Source of the DNA: an uncultured Latescibacterota bacterium
GTDB lineage: Bacteria > Latescibacterota > UBA2968
Length of the DNA stretch: 64,000 bases
Assembly: GCA_958295785.1 (NCBI GenBank)
Contig: OY282377.1
Coordinates: 2,246,394 to 2,310,393 of the forward strand
Reading direction: 5' to 3'
Below the pieces are notes generated by a model. It ran no database searches and was not told where the DNA came from. It was given only the letters and a program-made list of their open reading frames with translations. Shown piece by piece: positions 24,828 through 38,306 of the stretch. Position numbers and translations under genes: made by a program. The first letter of the stretch is position 1. Every line of letters begins with the position of its first letter.

Positions 24828-24962
24828 GACAAAAATTGGGCAGATTCTATTAAAAAATATGGAGTTATGGTTTTCCGTTTGCCTCGCCACAATCCGTTTG
24901 CCCAAGTGGGCGTTGCGGCATTATTTTATGGCGTGATGAAAATAAAACAAAGGACGACCTTC

Positions 24963-25826
24963 ATGCGAACGGATTCTGAGGCCAGTGTAATCCATCGCGT
25001 TACCCGGTATGACGGGGCTATTGGCAAAGCTGTGGATGATGTTCTGGTCAAAGAAGAACCGCTCGAAATTCGCGTTGCCGGAGAACCCGTTGCCGCGACC
25101 ATGCGAACGCCTGGCGCAGATCGCGCCCTCGCGCTGGGCTTTTTGTACGCCGAAGGAATGATTCGCGAAATCGGCGACGTCGGGCGCGCAGGGCATTGCG
25201 GGCGCCCGGGGATGCCCGAATACGGCAATGTGATCGATGTTCTCCCACGCCCGGGCGCCCTCCTCGACCCCGAACGGATCCGCGCGAGCCGCCGGGGCAC
25301 CCTGATCTCGTCGGCGTGTGGGGTATGCGGGCGCGAGCAGATCGCCGATTTGATGCAGCGATGCCAGCCCCTTGCCGATGGGCGTTCCGTGCGGGCCGCG
25401 AGGATTTTTGCCGCACAGGATCAGATGCGCCAATCGCAGCGCGTGTTTGCACAAACAGGAGGCGTCCACGCCGCTGCCGCCTTTTCGGAACAGGGGGATA
25501 TGGTCGCATGTTATGAAGACATCGGTCGGCACAATGCGGTCGATAAGGTCGTCGGCTATATGCTCGAAACGCGCAACATAACAGAAGGCGAGGGCGTGCA
25601 GATGCTCACCGTGAGCAGCCGAGCGAGTTTTGAAATCGTGCAAAAAGCCGCTGTTGCCCGCATTCCAGTCGTGATCGCCGTATCTGCCGCGAGTTCATTG
25701 GCGGTCGATCTCGCCCGCGCCCTGGGCATCACCCTCATCGGCTTTGCGCGCAAAGACAGAATGGTGGTCTATACGGGAGAGGTAAGGGCGGTGCAAAGTG
25801 CAAAGGGGCTGACCGCTGACCACTGA
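24963..25826 (+). CDS. fdhD: Formate dehydrogenase accessory sulfurtransferase FdhD
   Basis: Encodes 287 residues from ATG 24963, which has AAAGGACG upstream; the frame stays open upstream but is not conserved. FdhD transfers sulfur from a cysteine desulfurase to the molybdenum cofactor of formate dehydrogenases. It shows the CGVCG redox motif (SSACGVCGR), GFLYAEGMI, VFAQTGGVHAAA and YEDIGRHNAVDKVVG, all typical. No formate dehydrogenase or molybdopterin gene lies in the window. The C-terminal tail (AKGLTADH and stop) is encoded by a CTGACCGCTGACCACTGA repeat, so the original C-terminus may have been replaced. Confidence 0.93.
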   Translation: MRTDSEASVIHRVTRYDGAIGKAVDDVLVKEEPLEIRVAGEPVAATMRTPGADRALALGFLYAEGMIREIGDVGRAGHCGRPGMPEYGNVIDVLPRPGALLDPERIRASRRGTLISSACGVCGREQIADLMQRCQPLADGRSVRAARIFAAQDQMRQSQRVFAQTGGVHAAAAFSEQGDMVACYEDIGRHNAVDKVVGYMLETRNITEGEGVQMLTVSSRASFEIVQKAAVARIPVVIAVSAASSLAVDLARALGITLIGFARKDRMVVYTGEVRAVQSAKGLTADH

Positions 25827-25960
25827 ATTTTACTCCTGTGGGAACTCCACTTGTAAATTTTAGGTCTAACCATTGATTGATCGCGCACAGGGACACCGCC
25901 TTCTACGATAGATGGGGGCGGGGACTAACCACTCTCCACTCTCCACTGCCCTTTGCTTAA
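25804..25960. repeat. TGACC(A/G)CT short-repeat cluster
   Basis: GCTGACCGCTGACCACTGA at 25810-25828 overlaps the fdhD stop. TAACCACTCTCCACTCTCCACT lies at about 25926-25947, before the AAGGAG ribosome site of the next gene. The same words are found at 322-346, 2030-2075, 15685-15715, 48786-48865, 62553-62586 and 62757-62776. Confidence 0.55.
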
Positions 25961-25969
25961 GGAGCAATT

Positions 25970-28900
25970 ATGACATCTGTTTTTCGCAACATACTCGGGG
26001 TTGCGCGTTATGAGCGCAAAATGCTTTTGAGAACCACAAAATTTCGCATTTTGGGCAGCATTGGCGTGTGTATTCCCGTGTTGCTCGGCATTGTCTTTGC
26101 CCTCATAGAAGCCAATGGGGTTGAATTGCCCATCGGAATGGATGCCTATATGCCGTTTTGGATGTACAGCTTTTTGCAGACTGTTGTCATCGCATTTATC
26201 GTGGGCGATTTCAGGGCGGCTGACGAACAGGCACATATTTACGAAGTGGTCGCAGGGCGTCCCGTTTCAACGGCGGAACTCGTTGCGGGAAAGTATTTGG
26301 GCATCGTGAGTGCGCTCGTTCTTTTGAGCCTTGGCGTGCTGATTTTGACCTTGGGCATCCAAGCGGCAAAGATCAGCATAACGGGCAATCCATTTAACGT
26401 CGAACCCTATATCGGCTACCTCGTGCTCATGAACCTGCCCGCCCTGATTTTTATGTCTTCTCTGACATTCTTTTTGGGCGCGTTGTTGCGCCGGCAAGCG
26501 GCGGTGGCCCTGATCGCGATAGGATATCTATTGGCCGTGATGATGTTTTTGGGCAGGCGATACGACGGCATCTACGACTTCGGCGCTTTTTTTCAGCCCT
26601 TGTATTACTCCGACTTGATCGGCCTGGCCGACGTGACGCAAGTGGGATTGCAACGCCTGTTCTACGTTTTGCTCGGCATTGGCTTTTTTGGCTTTTCAAT
26701 TGATCGCTATCCCCGCCTCGCCCATTCCCTGACCGCGCGGTGGTTTGGCCGCGGGTGCGCGCTGACCGGCTTTGGCTTGGCCGCGGGTCTCTACTTTTTT
26801 ATGGATGCGCGGGTTCAAGACGGGCAAGCCTATCGCCAATCCCTGCTCGCGCAACAAGAAGCGGTCGCACACCTTCCCGTCGCGGAAATCGCGCATTGCG
26901 ATCTAAACGTGACGCTTTTGGACAAAGACCCACTCGCTGCATCTGCCGCGCTCGCGCTGAAAAATCCGCATGAAACGCCGCTCGATACGCTGATTCTGTC
27001 CCTCAACCCCGGATTGAAAATTCAGAGCCTAACCCGCGGCGATGGAAAAGCGATAGCGTGGCAGCGAACCGGAAGCGCGATTCGCGTCATACCCGACTCG
27101 CCTCTAAAATCGGATCAGAAACTCGACCTGACGCTCAATTACGCGGGAGACATCGACACCGATGGGTTTGATCTCCAGCGGGAAAAGGGCAGGCCCAAAT
27201 TACGCAAACGCGAAGGGGCCATCAACAAAGGCACTTTGACCGCGTGGATCCGCGACGAGTCCATTTTTTTGCCGCCGCGCAGCCGTTGGTACCCGGTCGC
27301 GGGCGTGGATTACGGCTATGAACAAGCGCGCCCGGTCTCGTTCTCAACGGCGAACGTGCAGATCGCATTCCCCTTGGGTCTCGAAGTCATCACGCAAGGG
27401 CAGGTCGGCAAGACCGATACGCTCGATACGCGGGTAAGGCGGCAATGGGTCGTTGAAAAACCCGTGCCCGTTCTGTCGCTCAATGCGGGTATTTATCGCG
27501 TGTATCGCGCCACCATTCACGACATCGCATGCGCCCTTTACGTCCATCCCTCGCACCTGCGGCCCATCGAGTTTTTCGAAGGCACCGAAGAAGAGATCAC
27601 GCGCGCACTCGGTCAAATTGTGGATGCAATGGAACAGGAATCGGGCATGACATATCCCTATCCGAGCCTTTCGCTGGTGGAAATCCCCTTTCACATTCAG
27701 TGGTATTACGAGGGCTGGGAGGAAAAGGGCGGCCTGACGCAGCCGGGTGTGTTGATGATCGAAGAAGACGTGTTCATGCGGCAGCAATTCACCCGAAATT
27801 TTAAGCGTTATCAAAAAGGCGCTCGCGGCAAACGCGAACCCAAAGACATCAAAAAAGACCTGTTGGTACGCGCTGTTTTTTCCACCTTTTTTTCCAAAGA
27901 AGAAAGCGGCAAATCTTCCGGCGGCCTGTTCCGCAGCCCGGTTGTGCAGCTTTGGGCGTATGACAAGCAATTTGTGGGCGACCACTACGCGCTGCTCAAA
28001 AAGGGCATGCCCATGTATCTTCAGGACGATTTGAGCACCGACATGACCTCTGCGTTTTATTCCCGACGGCGCGGCGGTTTTGGCGACCGAGGGCGCGGTG
28101 GCCCCCGAGGCAACAGCAGGGGGTCGAGCGCGAGGTGGGACACGCTGGTCGCCAAAATGCAGCGCAAGTCGTTTGCCGAGTTGGACCCCGCAAAACAGGC
28201 CGGCCTCTATCGCCAAGTGCTCGACGCCAAAGGCCCCGCGCTCTTTCAGATGATAGAGTCCTTTTGGGGCGAAGAAACATTTCGCAATGTCCTGGACGAC
28301 ATCGACGAGAATCACAAATACGACGACATCGATTTTTCGACCTTTGAGCGCGCCGCCATAGGCGATACCACAGACAGCGAAAACAGCCAAAAACTACAGC
28401 GTTTGGTCAACGATTGGATCTTTGGCACAGAAATCCCGGGCTATACCCTCACGCGGGTCAAAGCCATGAAAATGGACGACGGCTTTGGCATGGTGGTCTA
28501 TCAATTGATCCTACGCATCAAAAACAGCGAACCGGGACGGGGCTATGTGCAAATTACGGCTTCGGGACGGGGCGATGAGGCCGTCAAGGGCGTGGAGATC
28601 GAAGGCGGGCAGGAAATTGAAGTGTCGATGGTGTTGTGGGATCAGCCCTTCCGCGTGATGGTCGAACCGTTTTTTGCGCGCAACCGCCGCCCCTTGGTCT
28701 CTCCGGTGCGCGTTCCCGAAAAGGTGGTAGAAGGATTTCCCGTCTCTTATGTCAAAGACGTGACCGGCGAAGCGTCTGGGCCGCTCGAGATCATAGTCGA
28801 TAATGACGATGACGGATTTTCGATGCCCATTCGCCGCGAGACGCGCTATTTTCGCCCCGGGCTCAAAGGCGACAACTGGCGCGAACACGTCATGCCAATG

Positions 28901-29392
28901 GCCTTTGGGCGATTTGAAACAAATTATCGGCGAAAGCGAGGGGGCGATGGCGCGCAACCGGCCGTGTGGACCGCGCGCATCCCCAAAGATGGCGAGTTCG
29001 ACGTGGGCTTTTATTTTCCCGATCCGTCCATGGCCAAGCGCCTGCGAATCGGCTCGCGCTTTACCCTCACGGTTTTTCACGGGGGCAAGGCCGATACGCT
29101 CAAAATGGAACGCGATCTGATGAAAGCCGGGTGGAATCACTTGGGGCGATACACCTTTGCCGAGGGGGAAGAGGCCGCGGTCGAATTGTCTGACCGCGCA
29201 GAGCGTGGCCTGTATGCCGATGCCGTGCGGTGGCGTTTTTTCGACCCGCAAAACCCCGATGCCTACGAAGACGAATTGCCCGCGTTTATGTTTGGACGCG
29301 GCAGAGGTGGGCCGGGTGGCCCCGGCGGCCGAGGCGATGGCGAAAGACGCGGCCCCGGGCGACGCGGCGGCGGGATCGGGTTGGATTTTTAA
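25970..29392 (+). CDS. ABC-2 type permease fused to a degenerate M1 peptidase-like domain
   Basis: Encodes 1140 residues. Residues 1-275 have about seven membrane helices and resemble an ABC-2 permease. Residues about 300-820 resemble M1 aminopeptidases (Ig-like strand region, then WEEKGGLTQPG near 582-592, in the place of the family's GxMEN loop). I find no HExxH zinc motif in the following 150 residues, so the domain is probably catalytically dead. An Arg/Gly-rich segment (RRRGGFGDRGRGG, 699-711) interrupts it, and another (about 1109-1137) ends the protein. ATG 25970 has AAGGAG. Permease-M1 fusions are known in FCB bacteria. It opens the RND/ABC efflux operon and needs an ATPase, which could be the one fused to the second RND protein. 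Confidence 0.82.
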   Translation: MTSVFRNILGVARYERKMLLRTTKFRILGSIGVCIPVLLGIVFALIEANGVELPIGMDAYMPFWMYSFLQTVVIAFIVGDFRAADEQAHIYEVVAGRPVSTAELVAGKYLGIVSALVLLSLGVLILTLGIQAAKISITGNPFNVEPYIGYLVLMNLPALIFMSSLTFFLGALLRRQAAVALIAIGYLLAVMMFLGRRYDGIYDFGAFFQPLYYSDLIGLADVTQVGLQRLFYVLLGIGFFGFSIDRYPRLAHSLTARWFGRGCALTGFGLAAGLYFFMDARVQDGQAYRQSLLAQQEAVAHLPVAEIAHCDLNVTLLDKDPLAASAALALKNPHETPLDTLILSLNPGLKIQSLTRGDGKAIAWQRTGSAIRVIPDSPLKSDQKLDLTLNYAGDIDTDGFDLQREKGRPKLRKREGAINKGTLTAWIRDESIFLPPRSRWYPVAGVDYGYEQARPVSFSTANVQIAFPLGLEVITQGQVGKTDTLDTRVRRQWVVEKPVPVLSLNAGIYRVYRATIHDIACALYVHPSHLRPIEFFEGTEEEITRALGQIVDAMEQESGMTYPYPSLSLVEIPFHIQWYYEGWEEKGGLTQPGVLMIEEDVFMRQQFTRNFKRYQKGARGKREPKDIKKDLLVRAVFSTFFSKEESGKSSGGLFRSPVVQLWAYDKQFVGDHYALLKKGMPMYLQDDLSTDMTSAFYSRRRGGFGDRGRGGPRGNSRGSSARWDTLVAKMQRKSFAELDPAKQAGLYRQVLDAKGPALFQMIESFWGEETFRNVLDDIDENHKYDDIDFSTFERAAIGDTTDSENSQKLQRLVNDWIFGTEIPGYTLTRVKAMKMDDGFGMVVYQLILRIKNSEPGRGYVQITASGRGDEAVKGVEIEGGQEIEVSMVLWDQPFRVMVEPFFARNRRPLVSPVRVPEKVVEGFPVSYVKDVTGEASGPLEIIVDNDDDGFSMPIRRETRYFRPGLKGDNWREHVMPMAFGRFETNYRRKRGGDGAQPAVWTARIPKDGEFDVGFYFPDPSMAKRLRIGSRFTLTVFHGGKADTLKMERDLMKAGWNHLGRYTFAEGEEAAVELSDRAERGLYADAVRWRFFDPQNPDAYEDELPAFMFGRGRGGPGGPGGRGDGERRGPGRRGGGIGLDF

Positions 29393-29479
29393 CGGGTGTT
29401 ACGCACAGATTGGACGGGCGCGGGGGGCCTCTCACCTTGCGTCTTACTTTTTTTTTCACTGATTTTTTGGAGGGCGAAC

Positions 29480-30547
29480 GTGGGGTTTGATTTTTGTCCA
29501 AAGCTGCTGTTGGCGGTTGTTCTTTGCGGCCTCGTGGCCTGCGACCGGCAAACAGAACAGCGCACGGTCGATCTGACCGTTCCGGTGACGGTGCAATCCG
29601 TAGAGACCGGAACCATTGAATCCATTGTAACGGCCACGGGAACTTTAAGACCCGTGCGCGAAGCGCAGATCGCCACGGAAATTCGGGGCAGCCTGTACTG
29701 GGGCAAGGGCAATAACAACCGCTTGCTCGTCAAGGGATCCGCGGTTAAAAAGGGGCAGGTCATTGCAACACTCGACAGCGACGAATGGGTGGTGGGCGCG
29801 CGGGTGGAGGCGCGCAAATTGGCGGTCGAAACGGCCATGCGGACGCTCAGAGAACAGGAAACCCTCTTTGACCGGCAACTCGCAACGGAAATGGCCGTTG
29901 AAAATGCGCGCAAAGCCTGGGCCGATGCCGATGCCAACTACCGAGATGCCCTCATCAAAATCGACAAAACCAAACTCGTCGCGCCCATTGGCGGCGCGCT
30001 GTCTGAACGCGCGGATATCACGCAGGGAACGCTGGTGAATGAGCGAACCTCTATCGCAAAGATCATGGATTATTCGCAGGTGTTTGTCGATTTGAAAATC
30101 CCCAACGCGCAGATCATCCATGTGAAATTGGGCCAGCGCGTTCGCGTGAGCAATTACGCCTTGCCTGACGCGGTTTTTGAGGGCGAGATCGCGGAGATGG
30201 ATCCCGCGCTGGATCCGACCACGCGCACGGTAAAAGTCGGGGGGATGGTGAACAATCCCGACCTGTTGTTGCGCGCGGGCATGTTTGTCAAAGCGGAAAT
30301 CGTCACGGAGTCGCGCCAAAACGTCGTTCTCATTGCGCGCCACTTGGTTTTGCGGCGACGCAATCAAAAGGTCGTTTTTGTCGAAGAAGAAGGCCGCGCC
30401 CAACAGCGCGAAGTCGAAACCGGCCTCGAAGACCGCGACCGCGTGGAAATCGCCGTTGGCCTTGAACCGGGCGAACAATTGATCACGAGCAATTACGAAA
30501 CGCTGAGGCCGAGAACCAGGGTGCGGGTCACGGGAGACGGGCGATGA
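29480..30547 (+). CDS. RND efflux periplasmic adaptor (HlyD/MFP lipoprotein)
   Basis: Encodes 355 residues from GTG 29480, which has a strong GGAGGGCG site; the frame upstream is not credible. The signal ends in a lipobox (CGLVAC), so the adaptor is anchored to the inner membrane. The lipoyl-like half-motifs are ATGTLRPVREAQIATEIRG and KLVAPIGGALSERADITQG, flanking a short helical hairpin; a beta-barrel domain (VDLKIPNAQ, TRTVKVGGMV) follows. It would link the RND pumps to an outer-membrane channel, but no TolC-like gene is in the operon. Its stop codon overlaps the next ATG (ATGA). Confidence 0.93.
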   Translation: MGFDFCPKLLLAVVLCGLVACDRQTEQRTVDLTVPVTVQSVETGTIESIVTATGTLRPVREAQIATEIRGSLYWGKGNNNRLLVKGSAVKKGQVIATLDSDEWVVGARVEARKLAVETAMRTLREQETLFDRQLATEMAVENARKAWADADANYRDALIKIDKTKLVAPIGGALSERADITQGTLVNERTSIAKIMDYSQVFVDLKIPNAQIIHVKLGQRVRVSNYALPDAVFEGEIAEMDPALDPTTRTVKVGGMVNNPDLLLRAGMFVKAEIVTESRQNVVLIARHLVLRRRNQKVVFVEEEGRAQQREVETGLEDRDRVEIAVGLEPGEQLITSNYETLRPRTRVRVTGDGR

Positions 30548-33500
30548 ATTTGCCGGAATTTTCAACGCGCTATCCGGTCACCGTTGCGATGGCTACCCTC
30601 GCGGTGGTGTTGCTCGGATGGATTTCCCTCGGGGGCTTGGGCACGGATCTCTTGCCCGATTTGCAAACGCCTGTCGTCACCATCGACCTGAGCGCGCCGG
30701 GCAAATCGCCCCGCGAACTCGAAGAGCGTTATACGCGCCGCCTCGAGCGCGACGTGAGCACCATTCAGGGCGTCAAGCGCGTGTATTCGATCACGCGATC
30801 CGGGCAAAGCGTGGTCGTGGCGGAATTTGCGTGGGATGCGGACCTGGATTTCGGCTTGCTCGACATCCAAAAAAAGGTGGGGCGTTATGCGACAAATGAC
30901 GACGTGTCGCAGTTGGATGTGACGCGAGAAGACCCCCTCGCCCGCGCGGTGATGCGAATTGCGATCACAGCCGAAGACGATGCCGAACTCGACGCGCTCG
31001 TGGGCACGGTCGATTTGCTGATCAAGCCCAAATTGGAAGCCCTCGATGGCGTGGCGTCCGCCGAAGTGGAAGGGGGCGCGGAAAAAGAAGTCCGCGTGAC
31101 GCTCGACCCCTATTTGCTCGAAGCCTTTGGGCTTGCGCCCGACGCCATCGTCAACCGCATTGGGCAGGCCAATGCCGACGTGTCTGGAGGCACGTTGCGG
31201 GAAAACCAGCAGTCGTATTTGGTCAAAGCACTGGGGCGTCTGGACGACATCAATGACGTGCGCGACGTCATCGTGGGGGAAAAGCGCGGGCAAGGAGGCG
31301 CGGTCTCGGGCGACCGCGTGCCGGTGCGCGTGCGCGATGTGGGCACGGTCGATTTGGTCTATCGAGAGCGGGAAACCATCGTGCGCCTCGACGGCCGCGA
31401 ATGCGTGGGCCTCGCCATTTACAAAGAGGCCGGAAGCAATACGGTCGCGGTGGTGCAAGCGGTGGTGGATGCGCTAGGCGATCTCGAAGCCGACCTGAGC
31501 GGGTTGCGCTTTACCACAGTCGAAAATCAGGCCCGATTTGTGGAAGACGCCGTGGGCGAAGTCAAAACCTCGGCCATCCACGGGGCGATTTTGGCCGTTT
31601 TCGCGCTGTTGATCGCCTTGCGGAGTTTCACCGCCACGCTGGTGATCGGGTTGGCGATCCCCATTTCCGTGCTGGCGACGTTCACGCTGATGTACTTCGA
31701 GGGGCTGACCCTGAATATCATGACCCTGGGCGGCTTGGCCTTGGGCGCGGGCATGCTCGTGGACAATGCGATAGTGGTCATCGAAAATATTTACCGCCAC
31801 CTCGAAACCGGCGAAGATGCGCGCACCGCGTCGCACCGGGGCGCGTCCGAAGTCGGGGTGGCGATTTTGGCCTCTACCATGACGACCGTGGCCGTGTTTT
31901 TGCCCATTGTCTATTTGCAGGGATTGGCCGGCGAACTCTTCAAAGATCAGGCGTGGACGGTCGCATTTTCCCTGCTGTCTTCCCTAGTCGTGGCAATGAC
32001 CGCGATTCCGATGCTGACCTCGCGCATTTTTCGCCGCGTGAAAACCGCGCGCACAACCGCGATTCGGTCGGGCACATACTACCGCTTGCTCAATGGCGTG
32101 TTGAACCACAAACCCGTGCTGCTCGGCATGGCGATGCTCGTGCTCGTTGGAACCGGGTACATCGCCCGCACGGTGCAGACCGAATTTATTCCGCGCGAAG
32201 ATCAGGGCTTGTTCCAGATCGATCTCACCTTGCCCGAAGGCGCACGCGTGGAATTGAGCGATCAGATCGCCCTGCGCGCCAAAGAGATCGTGGAAGCCAT
32301 CGGCGGGCGCGATGTCGCGCATGTGTACGCGCGCGTGGGCCTGGATCCAGCGCGAATATCCGGCGCGGACGACCCCTCGGGGCCCAATCGCGCGACCCTC
32401 TCGGTGGCGCTACGGCCCGACCGCACGCGCAATATCAGCGAATTGGTGCGCGATCTCGACCCCGCGTTGAGCGCGATGCCCGATATCGAAGTCAAATACA
32501 AATTGCACGAAACCGCGCTCGAAGGCGTGATGGGCGGGCAGGAGGCGCCCATTCAGGTGGAGGTGTCCGGGGAAAATCTCGACATTTTGGCGCGCATCAC
32601 CAAAGACCTCCAAGCGCGAATCGAGCGCCTGCCCTCTGTGTACAATGTGCGGACGAGCTTTCAGGGCGGGCAGCCAGAAGTCGATTTGGCGATCCGCGAT
32701 GAAGTGGCGGCGGCATTTGGCCTGACCACGCAGGCCATCAGCCGAACACTGGAACGACAATTGTCCGGCGAAGTCGCGGGCGAATTGTCCAAAGACCAGC
32801 GCACGCGCGATATTCGCGTCAAATATCGCGATGTGGATCTCAATGCCCTCCAAACCATCCGCATCGAAGGCGCGGAGGGCGCGGTCTTGACTTTGGGCGA
32901 TATTGCCGATCTCAATATCATCGAAGGCCCCCGCGAGATTTTGCGGGAAAACCAGCGGCGCGTGGGGCGCCTCACCGGGTATTTGACCGAAGGCCGCGCC
33001 TTGAGCGAAGCCATTGCCGAAATCCGCGCTGAAATAAAAACGATGGCCATACCCGCGGGGTATCGCATCGGCATTGGCGGCGAAGAGCGCGAGCGCCGCG
33101 AATCCTTTGAAAGCCTCAAATTTGCCCTCCTGCTTTCTATCGTACTGGTCTATATGGTCATGGCCTCGCTGTTTGAATCCGTCCTCCACCCGTTCACGGT
33201 GATGTTTTCCGTGCCCTTGGCCGGCGTCGGCGTGGTCTTTGCGTTTCATCTCTTGGGCGAGCCTTTAAGCGTGATGGCCTATATCGGCATCATCATGCTC
33301 GGCGGCATTGCGGTCAACGACGCGATCGTGCTCGTGGATCGCATCAACCAACTCAGGCGCGATGGCATGGGGTTGCGAGAAGCTGTCTTGCAAGGCGGGC
33401 AAGACCGCTTGCGCCCCATTGTGATGACGAGTGCCACGACCATTCTCGCCCTGTTGCCGATGGCACTCGGCTTTGGCGAAGGCGCGAAGTTGCGCGCGCC

Positions 33501-33609
33501 CATGGCCATTGCCGTCATTGGCGGCTTGGTGACCTCTACGTTGATGACCCTGCTCATCATTCCCACCATGTACGAGATGATCGACCGCCTGAGGGGGAAA
33601 TCGGCATGA
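30544..33609 (+). CDS. RND family efflux permease (AcrB-like)
   Basis: Encodes 1021 residues, the standard size. It has twelve membrane helices and two large periplasmic porter loops. The fourth helix has MLVDNAIVVIEN with Asp 407 at the position of the AcrB proton-relay aspartate and Asn 408 in place of the second one. The helix that carries the relay lysine in AcrB reads AVNDAIVLVD here and lacks it, as in many non-proteobacterial pumps. It exports drugs, metals or lipophilic compounds by proton antiport. It is coupled to its neighbours by ATGA overlaps at both ends, so it is probably translated with a second, non-identical RND subunit. Confidence 0.95.
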   Translation: MNLPEFSTRYPVTVAMATLAVVLLGWISLGGLGTDLLPDLQTPVVTIDLSAPGKSPRELEERYTRRLERDVSTIQGVKRVYSITRSGQSVVVAEFAWDADLDFGLLDIQKKVGRYATNDDVSQLDVTREDPLARAVMRIAITAEDDAELDALVGTVDLLIKPKLEALDGVASAEVEGGAEKEVRVTLDPYLLEAFGLAPDAIVNRIGQANADVSGGTLRENQQSYLVKALGRLDDINDVRDVIVGEKRGQGGAVSGDRVPVRVRDVGTVDLVYRERETIVRLDGRECVGLAIYKEAGSNTVAVVQAVVDALGDLEADLSGLRFTTVENQARFVEDAVGEVKTSAIHGAILAVFALLIALRSFTATLVIGLAIPISVLATFTLMYFEGLTLNIMTLGGLALGAGMLVDNAIVVIENIYRHLETGEDARTASHRGASEVGVAILASTMTTVAVFLPIVYLQGLAGELFKDQAWTVAFSLLSSLVVAMTAIPMLTSRIFRRVKTARTTAIRSGTYYRLLNGVLNHKPVLLGMAMLVLVGTGYIARTVQTEFIPREDQGLFQIDLTLPEGARVELSDQIALRAKEIVEAIGGRDVAHVYARVGLDPARISGADDPSGPNRATLSVALRPDRTRNISELVRDLDPALSAMPDIEVKYKLHETALEGVMGGQEAPIQVEVSGENLDILARITKDLQARIERLPSVYNVRTSFQGGQPEVDLAIRDEVAAAFGLTTQAISRTLERQLSGEVAGELSKDQRTRDIRVKYRDVDLNALQTIRIEGAEGAVLTLGDIADLNIIEGPREILRENQRRVGRLTGYLTEGRALSEAIAEIRAEIKTMAIPAGYRIGIGGEERERRESFESLKFALLLSIVLVYMVMASLFESVLHPFTVMFSVPLAGVGVVFAFHLLGEPLSVMAYIGIIMLGGIAVNDAIVLVDRINQLRRDGMGLREAVLQGGQDRLRPIVMTSATTILALLPMALGFGEGAKLRAPMAIAVIGGLVTSTLMTLLIIPTMYEMIDRLRGKSA

Positions 33610-36600
33610 CACTTGCGGGGTTTGCAGTGCGCCGGCCCGTCACCACGGCCATGTTTTTTTTGGGCTTGGGCCTGATGGGCGCGATCTCCCTCCATCGGTT
33701 GCCCGTGCAAATTTTCCCGGAAGTCGTTTTGCCCGAAGTCTTTGTCACGGCCAATCGGCAGGGCTATTCGCCCGAGCAGGTCGAGCGCGAATTGGTCGTG
33801 CCCATCGAAGCGGAAATCGGCAAACTCGATGACATCGAGGCGTTCGAATCCTTTTCCCGCGAGAACAGCGGCGGGGTGCGCGTTTCCTACGCGCCGGATG
33901 CGGACATGAAATTCGCGCTGTTGCAACTCGAAAGCCGCATAACGCGCCTGCAACCGCTCTTGCCCGAACGCACGCGGATCAATGTGCAACGCTTTGATTC
34001 GTCCGATCTCTCGGCCTCTGTGATGCAAATTCACGTCTTGGGCGAAGGCGATATCAACTGGCTGCGCGAATTTGCCGAAGAGAAAATCCGCCCGGAATTG
34101 GAAGCCGTGGATGGCGTGGTCAACGCACAAATTTTGGGCGGGCAACGGGCGGCTATCGAGATTATTGTGGATCCCGTGCTGTTGCAAGCGCACCAGCTTT
34201 CGATGTCGGATATTCGCAATCGCATCAATGCGTTTAATACGCGGCGGCAATATGTCGGGCGCGTGTACGACGGCGACCAGATGTATGCGGTCAGCATTCA
34301 GGGGCAGTTCGCGGACCTCGTGCAAATCCGTCAACTCGTGATCAAACCCGAATTGCCCCTGCACCTCGGCGACCTCGCGCAAATTCGCTACGGGCTTCAA
34401 GAGCGCACGGACTTGCAGCGCATCAACGGCAAGCCCGCAGTGGGCATTCGCATCCAAAAAGACGACGAAGCCAATTTGATCGCAGTCGCAGAAGAACTCG
34501 AAAAAACCATAGCGCGCATCAACGGGGACCTCGCCCATGAAAACATCCAACTCGCGATCGCGCAGAATCAGGCCGAGATTATGAACGAAGCCCTCAGCAC
34601 CCTCAAACAAGCCGCAGTCGTGGGGGGATTGCTCGGGCTTTTTGTTTTGTTCTTGTTTTTGCGAAATCTGCGCTTTGTCGCGGTGTTGCTCTTGGCGATT
34701 CCGTGTTCGCTGTTGCTCACGTTCAATTTGATGTATTTGTGGGATCTCAGCCTGAATGTGCTGTCCCTGTGCGGCCTCGCCCTCGCGGTTGGGATGTTGA
34801 CCGACAATGGCATCGTGGTCATGGAGAATATCTTCAAGCATTTTGAGCAGGGCAAATCCCCCCGAGAAGCCGCGCGATTGGGCACGGACGAGGTCGCCCG
34901 CGCCGTGCTCGCTGCAACCGCAACCACGGTGACGGTCTTTTTGCCCGTGGTTTTTATCCAAAGCGATTATCGGGATATTTTGCGCGAACTCGCGCTGTCG
35001 ATGACCTTTCCGCTGATCGCCTCGCTTTTGGTCGCCCTTACGCTCGTGCCCGCCCTCGCGTCCAAAACCCTGTCCCTGTCGTCGCGGCCCCCAACCGAAA
35101 CCGGCAGGCTGATCGAGATGTACACAATCTGCCTCAAAACCGGCTTGCGCCACCGGATCGGCGTGTCGTTGGGCATTGCGGGCGCGCTCATCATCACGCT
35201 GATCATTTCGTTGTTCTTTATGTTGCAACAAGATGTGCGGCGCGAAGAGAACCGGTTTACCGTGTATATCAGCACGCCCGAAGGCACGACCTTAGAGGCG
35301 TTGGACGCCGTTGTGGGAGAAGTCGAAAGCGCGGTGCGAGAACTTGCGGGCTTAGACCGCTTTGTCACCAGCATTCGGGAAACGCAGGCGAGCATCGTTG
35401 TCGAGCTTTTGCCCCTGTCTGAACGCCCCGACGAGATCTCGGTCGATCTCGTCAAGGAAAACCTCGAAGAGTCGTTCGGCAAGGTGCAAAACGCCGTTGT
35501 GAGCTACGAGGCCATCGCCCGCACGGGCAGGGGCGGGGGCCGCGGCGGCGGCGGGATTCGCGGAAGCAGTCGCGCCCGCTCATCGGGCGGGTTCAATTTA
35601 GAAGGCGGCGCGCCTTCGGAAACAGCGGTGATTCGCGGATACGATTTTTCGGTGTTGCAAATGATCGCCGACGATTTGGTCTATCGCCTCGAAGAAGTGG
35701 AAGAAATCGACCCCAACAGCGTGCGGGCCGATGCCGAGCGCGGCGCGCCCGAGGTGCATGTCTTGCCCGACGAAGCCGTGATGTTTGACCGCCGCTTGCA
35801 AGTGCGAAATGTGCTCAATGCCGTGGGCGACACCAATCCGCGCGGCGCGCGCACCACTGTTTCATTTCTCACGCCCGATGGCGCGGAAATCCCGATAGAG
35901 GTTCGCAATGTGGAAGACCCCGAAGACGAGGGGGAGGGCATTGCCGGGTTGCGCCAAACCCCGATCCTCGGCGCGGGCGGGACGTATTTGCCCCTCTCGG
36001 AAGTGTCGCATGTGCGCCGCGATCAGGGCCGCAGCATGATTTTGCGTACCGATCAATCCCGTCGCGTGATCGTGTCTTACCGCTTTGCCGCCGAAATTTT
36101 GGCGTCGCAACCCCTCTTGGACGCGGCCCGTGCGTACACGCGCGACGCGATCTCCCAAATGGTGTTGCCCACAGGGTATAGCATCGAGATCGTGGAGGCC
36201 GAGGCCGAGACGATTTACTACTGGATGATCGGCATTGCCGCGCTGTTGATTTTCATGATTTTGGCCTCGCTATTTGAATCGCTCTCCGCGCCGTTGATCA
36301 TTCTCTGCACCTTGCCCACGGCCATTATTGGGTCGTGCTGGGCGCTGGTCTTATCGGGCACCGGGCTGACCTCGCAAGAAGCGCCGATGGCGCTGCTGGG
36401 GTTTATCGTGTTGCTCGGCATTGCCGTCAACAATGGGATCGTGCTGATCGACGCGATAGGCAACCTGCGCTATCGGCGCGGGTTCAGGCGCGAGCGCGCC
36501 GTGCTATCGGCTTCCCGCTCGCGCGTGCGCCCCATTTTGATGACCTCGGCAACCACCATTTTGGGCGTGTTGCCCCTGGCGCTCAAATTTGGCGGCGATT

Positions 36601-38306
36601 ACGAAATTTGGCCCCCGTTTGCCATTACCGTGCTCGGGGGGATGGCGGTTTCCATGGCGTCAACCCTGGTCTTTATTCCCGTGGTCTATATGGGCATCGA
36701 CCAAGTCAAAGCATGGCTGGCGGATATCGGTTGGATCGGGATCGGGCTGGGAACCGCGGCCGCGGCGGGCTTGACCTATCTGATTGACGACTATTACGAG
36801 AGTTTGTTTTGGACGTGCCTTTTGGCACTGCCAGCGTGGATGACGTGTATGGGCGCGGTGTGGCTGGTGCAGCGCGTTCACCGCGCGCGTCTCGCCGCAC
36901 GCGATCAAATTGGCGATGTGGCATATCTCCAGATTCGCAATCTGACGAAAATTTACGGCGCGCCCGGTCAGTTCAGGCGCGAATGGGACCGGTTTCAGCG
37001 GCGCGAACAACGCGGGGGGCGTTTCATGGTTGACCCGCGGGACAGCCTGTGGTGGAAATTGCCCATGTTGGCCTTGCTCGTTTATTTGCAGACCTATTTT
37101 GAAGAGGGCACATGGATCTTTTTGACCGGTCTCGGCCTGTGGGGCCTCGTCCGCCATCTCGGCTCGGGCATCGCGGACCTGCGCGGTTGGAAGGTCGAGA
37201 ACCGATGGGTGTTGCAAATTGCCCGATTGACCCTCCCGCTGGCCTTTTTGGCCTATATCCATTGGCGGCTGGCCCTGCCGTCTTTGACCGTTGCCTGCGC
37301 GGTGGTGTATGTGCTCTATCGCCTGACCGCTTTCTTGGCAAACCGCGTCGCGTCTGGGCGCGTCAATCCAGAAAATATGCCGGGGCGATTGGGCACGCTC
37401 AAGGGCATCGCGTATCGCGGCGCGGCTGCCGCGCCCATCATCGGCGTCCCCCGCCCGCAATTTCGCGCCCTCAGCGGCGTGAGTCTCGATATTCCGCGCG
37501 GGATGTTTGGGCTTTTGGGCCCCAACGGCGCGGGCAAGACCACGCTGATGCGGATCGTGTGCCGGGTTTTGTCGGCAAATTACGGATCCGTGCTCGTCAA
37601 TGGCACGACGCCGCTCAATCGCCAAAACACGCAAGGCGTGATCGGCTATCTGCCGCAGCACTTCGGCCTCTATTTGCACATGTCTGCGTGCGATTATCTG
37701 GAATACCGCGCCCTGTTGGAGGGGTTCAAAGACGGGGCCGCGCGGCGCAAGCGCGTTCAGGAGTGTTTGGAACAGGTCAACCTGTGGGACAGGCGAGACG
37801 ATCAAATCGGCGCGTTTTCAGGTGGCATGAAACAGCGCGTGGGCATTGCCCAAACCCTGTTGCACCTGCCGCAGGTCATTGTCGTGGATGAGCCGACAGC
37901 GGGCTTGGATCCGCTCGAGCGGATTCGGTTCAGAAATTTGCTGGCGCGATTTAGCCAAGAGAAGATCATTATTTTTTCCACGCATATTGTCGAAGATATT
38001 TCCGGCAGTTGCAACCGCTTGGTCGTGCTCGACCAAGGCAAAGTGCGCTACGCGGGAACGCCGTCTGAGATGCGCGAACTCGCGCGCGACAAGGTGTGGG
38101 AAGCCCTGTTGAGCGAAGCGCGTTTTGATGCGTTGGAACGCGATTTGGATCTGATTACCCACGTGCGCGTGCCAGACGGGATTCGCGTGCGTTACCTCGC
38201 CACATCACCCCTTTCCGAAGCGCGTGCGGTTGAACCCAATCTCGAAGACGCGTACCTCTACCTCTTGCGACATGGCGATGAATACAAACAAACTGACTTG
38301 GCGTGA
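33606..38306 (+). CDS. RND permease fused to an ABC ATPase that is split by a membrane insertion
   Basis: Encodes 1566 residues. Residues 1-1035 are a complete RND permease (Asp 400 in MLTDNGIVVMEN; AVNNGIVLID in the C-terminal half) with an Arg/Gly/Ser-rich linker at about 639-663. Two extra membrane helices (about 1043-1090) follow. An ABC ATPase then begins with LQIRNLTKIYG (1108-1118), stops, and resumes with FRALSGVSLDIPRG (1286 onward). The 167 residues between hold about four membrane helices. The rest of the ATPase is intact: Walker A GPNGAGKTT (1305-1313), Q-loop LPQHFG, signature FSGGMKQRVG, Walker B VIVVDEPTAGLDP and H-loop STHIV. The reading frame is continuous. The next permease gene overlaps its end by 35 bases. 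I know of no named system with this architecture. Confidence 0.9.
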   Translation: MTLAGFAVRRPVTTAMFFLGLGLMGAISLHRLPVQIFPEVVLPEVFVTANRQGYSPEQVERELVVPIEAEIGKLDDIEAFESFSRENSGGVRVSYAPDADMKFALLQLESRITRLQPLLPERTRINVQRFDSSDLSASVMQIHVLGEGDINWLREFAEEKIRPELEAVDGVVNAQILGGQRAAIEIIVDPVLLQAHQLSMSDIRNRINAFNTRRQYVGRVYDGDQMYAVSIQGQFADLVQIRQLVIKPELPLHLGDLAQIRYGLQERTDLQRINGKPAVGIRIQKDDEANLIAVAEELEKTIARINGDLAHENIQLAIAQNQAEIMNEALSTLKQAAVVGGLLGLFVLFLFLRNLRFVAVLLLAIPCSLLLTFNLMYLWDLSLNVLSLCGLALAVGMLTDNGIVVMENIFKHFEQGKSPREAARLGTDEVARAVLAATATTVTVFLPVVFIQSDYRDILRELALSMTFPLIASLLVALTLVPALASKTLSLSSRPPTETGRLIEMYTICLKTGLRHRIGVSLGIAGALIITLIISLFFMLQQDVRREENRFTVYISTPEGTTLEALDAVVGEVESAVRELAGLDRFVTSIRETQASIVVELLPLSERPDEISVDLVKENLEESFGKVQNAVVSYEAIARTGRGGGRGGGGIRGSSRARSSGGFNLEGGAPSETAVIRGYDFSVLQMIADDLVYRLEEVEEIDPNSVRADAERGAPEVHVLPDEAVMFDRRLQVRNVLNAVGDTNPRGARTTVSFLTPDGAEIPIEVRNVEDPEDEGEGIAGLRQTPILGAGGTYLPLSEVSHVRRDQGRSMILRTDQSRRVIVSYRFAAEILASQPLLDAARAYTRDAISQMVLPTGYSIEIVEAEAETIYYWMIGIAALLIFMILASLFESLSAPLIILCTLPTAIIGSCWALVLSGTGLTSQEAPMALLGFIVLLGIAVNNGIVLIDAIGNLRYRRGFRRERAVLSASRSRVRPILMTSATTILGVLPLALKFGGDYEIWPPFAITVLGGMAVSMASTLVFIPVVYMGIDQVKAWLADIGWIGIGLGTAAAAGLTYLIDDYYESLFWTCLLALPAWMTCMGAVWLVQRVHRARLAARDQIGDVAYLQIRNLTKIYGAPGQFRREWDRFQRREQRGGRFMVDPRDSLWWKLPMLALLVYLQTYFEEGTWIFLTGLGLWGLVRHLGSGIADLRGWKVENRWVLQIARLTLPLAFLAYIHWRLALPSLTVACAVVYVLYRLTAFLANRVASGRVNPENMPGRLGTLKGIAYRGAAAAPIIGVPRPQFRALSGVSLDIPRGMFGLLGPNGAGKTTLMRIVCRVLSANYGSVLVNGTTPLNRQNTQGVIGYLPQHFGLYLHMSACDYLEYRALLEGFKDGAARRKRVQECLEQVNLWDRRDDQIGAFSGGMKQRVGIAQTLLHLPQVIVVDEPTAGLDPLERIRFRNLLARFSQEKIIIFSTHIVEDISGSCNRLVVLDQGKVRYAGTPSEMRELARDKVWEALLSEARFDALERDLDLITHVRVPDGIRVRYLATSPLSEARAVEPNLEDAYLYLLRHGDEYKQTDLA

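Follow-up and report, generated by a model that had tools for sequence, protein, structure and literature searches.

The 1140-residue protein encoded at 25970–29392 of the analysed window, 64,000 nucleotides of a single-contig 5.66-Mb genome, carries, on an ABC-2-like permease, a domain that is a true M1-fold pseudoenzyme. It belongs to a conserved operon of an ATPase, the permease/pseudo-M1 protein, an adaptor, an RND permease and an RND-ABC fusion, which mixes two kinds of pump that are usually separate. The following parts of the protein are referred to below:

25970..29392, + strand: ABC-2-like permease/pseudo-M1/Golvesin_C protein, 1140 aa (open reading frame, stop included; Pfam; relatives)
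25970..26839, + strand: membrane part, residues 1-290, with seven predicted TM helices, N-terminus in and C-terminus out (family-averaged hydropathy, loop charges)
26867..28450, + strand: M1-aminopeptidase-fold domain without a zinc site, residues about 300-827 (AF2 model, VIA-align, hhalign)
27716..27748, + strand: WEEKGGLTQPG, GxMEN-equivalent loop, residues 583-593 (alignment columns)
27839..27889, + strand: helix of residues 624-640 replacing the HExxH helix, without zinc ligands (model helix 325-341, column composition; putative register)
27992..28030, + strand: LLKKGMPMYLQDD, former NEGFAxY helix, residues 675-687 (alignment, hhalign)
28223..28234, + strand: D752-A-K-G755, former catalytic-Tyr site, Y-x-K-G (60-row alignment)
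28904..29230, + strand: Golvesin_C domain, residues 979-1087 (PF25275, E 1.1e-13)

A preliminary description of this DNA had placed an M1 peptidase-like domain after the permease, at 27700–28300. Profiles, hhalign and the predicted fold bear out its identity, and the domain covers the quoted stretch, although its actual span is larger (about 26867–28450). Both analyses proposed there, a profile alignment to the M1 family and a structure prediction, were run and both return M1 homology or fold. Of the 60 family members, 55 have a Peptidase_M1 (PF01433) match at E ≤ 0.1, the strongest at 2.2e-9, while the window protein alone scores 15.9 bits against a Pfam cut-off of 27.7 bits. The family profile retrieves M1 structures from the PDB, the best at about 1e-7, including tricorn factor F3 and the zinc metalloprotease 6a8z (D. 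radiodurans M1), and hhalign of the family with 10 M1 proteins (four permease fusions, described below, and six others) gives a probability of 99.7% and an E-value of 1.6e-26. An AlphaFold2 model of residues 300-1140, built from 60 sequences, reached a mean pLDDT of 84.5 and a pTM of 0.80, and all 50 Foldseek matches listed for the ectodomain model are M1 aminopeptidases. Since whole-protein Foldseek TM-scores are modest (best match 0.43), we quote VIA-align Z-scores for the ectodomain model together with rmsd and length: Z 25.2 with rmsd 4.6 over 481 residues for IRAP (4pj6_B), and Z 24.9 with rmsd 3.2 over 393 residues for D. radiodurans M1 (6iff_A). A second structural look covers model residues up to about 685. 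As modelled, the ectodomain has the M1 peptidase fold.

The sites that make M1 proteins enzymes have gone. Residue-level comparisons used a 60-row alignment of the window protein and 59 of 77 usable relative rows; these 77 remained from 83 relative ORF pieces at 80 loci after six N-containing or short pieces were dropped, and the 18 usable rows omitted by choice are mostly near kin of retained ones. HExxH, reported earlier as not to be found after the loop, is absent from the whole window ORF, from 32 of 32 relatives and from all 83 relative ORF pieces, two sets that overlap and of which the second includes pieces not spanning the HExxH site. The helix that replaces the HExxH helix carries no zinc ligands; its residue register is our best placement, because hhalign is uninformative in that region. 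The WEEKGGLTQPG loop does occupy the GxMEN position, as had been proposed, and P592 is present in 60/60 rows, Q591 in 54/60 and W583 in 48/60. Together with P592, E571 and E599, the latter just past the loop, are invariant (60/60). The GxMEN motif itself was found in 0/32 relatives and 0/83 relative pieces. Further on, the position of the third zinc-ligand Glu does read LLKKGMPMYLQDD, with the Glu replaced by Lys678 (nt 28001-28003); no row of the 60 has Glu at 678. The former NEGFAxY helix reads KKGMPMY in the window and often N-x-A-x-E-x-Y in distant members, and its Tyr683 is kept in 44/60. The catalytic Tyr, two residues ahead of KG, has become Asp752 (Tyr in 0/60), and K754 of the same motif is kept in 57/60. 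Judged from these alignment columns, HExxH, the third zinc-ligand Glu and the catalytic Tyr have been lost family-wide.

Zinc ligands and a catalytic Glu elsewhere in the domain, the finding that would contradict such a loss, were sought over the 60 members and not found. No conserved His/Glu set exists in residues 612-690, the two former zinc helices, across the 60 members: some His occurs there in 33/60 rows and H-x3-H in two (L048, L064), neither of which is conserved. Inspection of the acidic and His columns for an alternative zinc site gave no ligand set in the former helices. A cryptic metallopeptidase in which other residues make the zinc site is thus very improbable in our assessment. 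The invariant acidic residues E571 and E599, the common H529 (54/60) and the Glu frequent at position 681 (42/60) could be read in its favour, but E571, E599 and H529 all lie outside the two former zinc helices, and the HPGH-type stretch that contains H529 is also present in fusions that carry HExxH.

The domain is maintained. Compared with two same-genus relatives, the M1-like part gave dN 0.117/dS 1.12 and dN 0.121/dS 1.15 (dN/dS about 0.10; dS is saturated against a third relative, L046), and this low ratio points to a conserved pseudoenzyme and not a decaying gene. By part, dN came to 0.117 (M1-like), 0.093 (permease) and 0.074 (C-terminal). Of four M1 segments compared for conservation within the M1-like part, the GxMEN-equivalent strand and loop (residues 568-600) rank first, at the 97th percentile, and the HExxH-equivalent helix stands at the 34th; these percentiles are recomputed values, scoring gaps as a letter being prone to inflate gap-rich columns. 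Such a pattern would be expected of a groove edge that is still doing something after metal chemistry was given up, and structural reasons for it are possible. The combination of a conserved GxMEN-equivalent loop and a variable HExxH helix favours, as far as sequence goes, a binding role, in keeping with the earlier suggestion of a binding or regulatory domain.

PF25275 (Golvesin_C) is matched in 60/60 family members, and in a search of the family profile against the PDB this part matches the C-terminus of xanthan lyase 6f2p at E 3.6e-12. ABC2_membrane Pfam matches of the window protein all fall below the cut-offs; as indirect support, the family membrane profile matches L156, a fusion that bears HExxH, at E 2.3e-10, and ABC2_membrane_4 scores above its cut-off in another such fusion, L157. 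In family-averaged hydropathy, six stretches exceed the threshold before residue 280, and since the stretch 151-190 is long enough for two helices, we read the membrane part as having seven TM helices. Predicted inside loops contain more Lys + Arg overall than the other loops, but the last loop preceding the ectodomain has a Lys + Arg content equal to that of an inside loop. With about seven TM helices and an N-terminus inside, the ectodomain is predicted to be periplasmic, a topology that rests on hydropathy.

Homologues of the permease/pseudo-M1 protein were found in 31 of the 60 genomes searched as relatives, the protein's own genome included. A scan of genome contigs matched 302 relatives, of which the best 80 were retained; it used one peptide pattern taken from the C-terminal part, so relatives lacking that part are missed. 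Among these best 80 of 302, the closest named relatives (80-81% identity) come from MAGs titled as Latescibacterota and one as Gemmatimonadota, and by record title the set includes Latescibacterota, Gemmatimonadota, Acidobacteriota, Bacteroidota, KSB1, Krumholzibacteriota, Zixibacteriota, Calditrichota and others. The Bacteroidota carriers in it include strains of Marinifilum, Prolixibacter and Labilibaculum; these cultured carriers make the system testable outside the uncultured Latescibacterota. A scan of viral contigs gave three pattern matches, none of which encodes a relative. Two loci, L099 and L075, have two permease/pseudo-M1 frames in tandem, the second in L075 running off the contig.

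The likely ancestry of the family is indicated by permease/M1 fusions that still bear HExxH. A PF01433 search of 11 genomes reached through family loci, in which part of the long M1 ORFs were read, yielded four such ORFs (L156-L159) in at least 3 of the 11 genomes. Their HExxH is intact and their M1 domain scores above the Pfam cut-off, and the GxMEN motif is missing from all four as well. The pseudo-M1 family profile aligns with each of L156, L157 and L158 as a single stretch that begins in the membrane half and extends into the M1 part, and with L159 in pieces. A permease-M1 ancestor was therefore probably shared, with the zinc site lost in one branch. A PF01433 search of the window's own genome for a canonical M1 protein gave 0 matches at E ≤ 0.001, with 8 of 14 control genomes positive; this search detects clear members only, because the window protein is missed too.

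The genes around the permease, and the parts of the fusion at the end of the operon, are as follows:

24867..25826, + strand: FdhD, flanking gene (neighbour comparison with same-genus loci)
29396..30547, + strand: RND/HlyD-type periplasmic adaptor (TIGR01730, E 7e-55)
30544..33609, + strand: RND permease 1, 1021 aa (ACR_tran, E 1.2e-233)
33606..38306, + strand: RND permease 2 fused to an ABC ATPase, 1566 aa (ACR_tran 4-1031, ABC_tran 1289-1432)
36927..36959, + strand: strand 1 of the nucleotide-binding domain (NBD), LQIRNLTKIYG, residues 1108-1118, before the insert (alignment, structural alignment, motif spacing)
36960..37457, + strand: hydrophobic insert within the NBD, about 165 residues (alignment; four model helices)
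37458..38303, + strand: remaining NBD, with Walker A, signature, Walker B and H-loop motifs present (alignment, motif scan)

Sequence long enough upstream is present at 61 of the 80 loci, and all 61 have an ATPase gene immediately ahead of the permease; downstream, 57 of the 80 loci extend for more than 7.5 kb, and 53 of them have the adaptor, RND1 and RND2 genes in that sequence. Two of the four exceptions (L056, L060) have the adaptor/RND genes upstream on the other strand, and no RND genes are present downstream within the available sequence of L074 (adaptor only) and L084 (none). In the Acidobacteria loci L054, L056 and L060 the adaptor/RND genes and the ATPase/permease pair are arranged divergently. 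At one distant locus (L067:11346-12833) an outer-membrane efflux protein gene (PF02321, E 9e-45) stands between permease and adaptor, and three other distant loci have frames of similar length in this place, a likeness of length only; between permease and adaptor in the window there is no outer-membrane factor gene.

The window itself departs from the common arrangement at its upstream end. The order FdhD, ATPase, permease is found in five same-genus loci; in the window the permease comes next after FdhD, and the ATPase gene is gone from the gap 25827-25969. The genome's own stand-alone ATPase gene (L125) is located at C1:3197237-3198139, about 0.9 Mb off and in another gene neighbourhood. It is one open frame with 83% identity to the gene of a relative and thus probably provides the partner in trans. 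One might take the missing neighbour and the missing HExxH as signs of a peptidase gene in decay or of a mis-assembly, an explanation to which we give next to no credence: dN/dS is low, the same motif loss recurs in every relative examined, the relocated ATPase gene is open and close to its relative as just described, and relatives of several phyla have full-length frames.

At the other end of the operon, a hydrophobic insert of roughly 165 residues splits the NBD of RND2 behind strand 1. From strand 1 to Walker A there are 186-207 residues in the fused proteins (16/19 with the pattern found), as opposed to 22-23 in stand-alone ATPases (42/74 with both motifs found). The strand-1 pattern was missed in L025, L169 and L170, of which L025 was aligned by MAFFT, and L163 gave no match to the H-loop pattern. 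A strict hydropathy scan of the insert picks out one TM-like stretch in the window copy and 1-4 in relatives, and the model has helices at 113-129, 133-157, 165-187 and 190-214 with low pLDDT (about 50-62). This RND-ABC NBD model, made from an alignment of the window sequence and 31 of 45 listed rows, has a mean pLDDT of 74.2, a pTM of 0.59 and values of about 93 at strand 1. The structural alignments listed begin at model residues 65-72 and thus include strand 1; that to LptB (4p31_B) covers 220 residues at rmsd 1.9. The structural match of strand 1 is support and not independent proof, because the input alignment pre-set its register.

A match to the RND-ABC fusion that reaches the NBD was obtained in 29 of the 31 permease genomes, the remaining two (G022, G023) being cut by a contig end, and in 1 of 29 genomes without the permease (G029); this count over the 60 genomes scored four candidates per genome at E ≤ 1e-100. 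The fusion was also present in 11/11 further genomes, the match starting at residue 1-7 in ten of them and at residue 82 in the other. Fusions with a split NBD occur in genomes of several phyla.

What the dead domain does can be proposed from its position and conservation. We lean towards a role in which the M1 domain, periplasmic by prediction, holds cargo for the exporter. The old aminopeptidase groove, bordered by the conserved GxMEN-equivalent strand and loop, would face the periplasmic side and, together with the Golvesin_C domain, would grip cargo without cutting it; candidates would be a peptide end, a lipopeptide or a glycoconjugate. Cargo leaving the ATP-driven permease might be handed on in this way to the adaptor/RND duct, whose genes lie alongside. 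Several observations count against this reading: conservation of the GxMEN-equivalent segment could have a structural cause, and the M1-like part evolves faster than either of the other two parts of the protein; to these come the scattered His of residues 612-690, the Lys + Arg content of the last loop before the ectodomain and the lack of downstream RND genes at L074 and L084. It is possible, if rather doubtful, that the domain is a scaffold only, which attaches the ABC permease to the adaptor/RND complex and has no part in cargo binding. The loss of all catalytic features, the close linkage to the adaptor and RND genes and the greater conservation of the Golvesin_C segment than of every same-length M1-like stretch (gaps scored as a letter) would suit a scaffold, but that the GxMEN-equivalent strand and loop should be the best conserved M1 segment tested would not. 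Ectodomains of BceAB-type permeases act as sensors that switch the pump, and the large ectodomain on an ABC-type permease likewise recalls a sensor; that a peptide or antibiotic sensed by the dead domain should switch its pump nevertheless seems to us improbable, the gene searches around the loci having covered the operon's own genes.

Under the cargo-holding reading, the ABC and RND parts may be viewed as one machine, for which gene order and the fused protein are the basis. More tentatively, and with rather less conviction than for cargo holding itself, we suggest a hybrid exporter in which RND2, a subunit with its own ABC ATPase, couples an ABC-2-type transporter and its dead M1 'hand' to an RND tripartite duct, both physically and energetically; about four helices inserted behind strand 1 would thread the NBD of RND2 through the membrane. 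If true, ATP-driven and proton-driven export of one cargo would be combined, and the RND-ABC fusion makes it testable whether ATP hydrolysis and proton flow can drive one duct. In the open-licence PMC literature, the matches listed contain no description of the permease/pseudo-M1 protein, the RND-ABC fusion or such a hybrid exporter. Taken together with the mixed ABC/RND genes around it and with the split NBD, the pseudo-M1 domain deserves experimental attention.

Among known proteins, the nearest in architecture are the fusions L156-L159, which like the window family join a membrane part to an M1 domain and have a Walker A ORF directly upstream. They differ in keeping HExxH and Y/F-x-K-G, in having 11-13 TM-like segments and in lacking a Golvesin_C match, whereas the window family has about seven TM helices, no zinc site and a Golvesin_C domain. 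The NCBI product name 'ABC transporter permease/M1 family aminopeptidase' presumably fits fusions of the L156-L159 type. The M1 aminopeptidases (D. radiodurans M1 6iff, tricorn F3, IRAP) share the fold at Z of about 24-25, but the zinc ligands and the catalytic Glu and Tyr have been lost in the window family. Each component class of the window locus is standard in RND tripartite pumps or GldA/DrrA-type ABC ATPases; the locus differs in combining RND and ABC, with one RND subunit that has an ABC NBD split by a hydrophobic insert. In the available portion of PMC11266112, the yeast M1-family protein Tma108 is listed among pseudopeptidases and its substrate pocket is used for binding, although, unlike the window protein, it is associated with nascent chains and keeps most active-site residues. 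Dead peptidase domains on exporters are already known for the C39 fold: according to the accessible part of PMC8277102, the C39-like domain of HlyB, in which Tyr replaces the catalytic Cys, recruits and chaperones cargo. HlyB resembles the window protein in carrying a dead peptidase domain on an exporter and differs in its cysteine-peptidase fold, N-terminal position and type 1 secretion (PMC8277102), the window protein having an M1 fold, a predicted periplasmic location and an ABC/RND locus. The pseudo-M1 domain would act like that of HlyB, but on the periplasmic side, and the M1-fold case, kept over several phyla with hybrid ABC/RND genes, would then be a second, independent retired protease that grips cargo.
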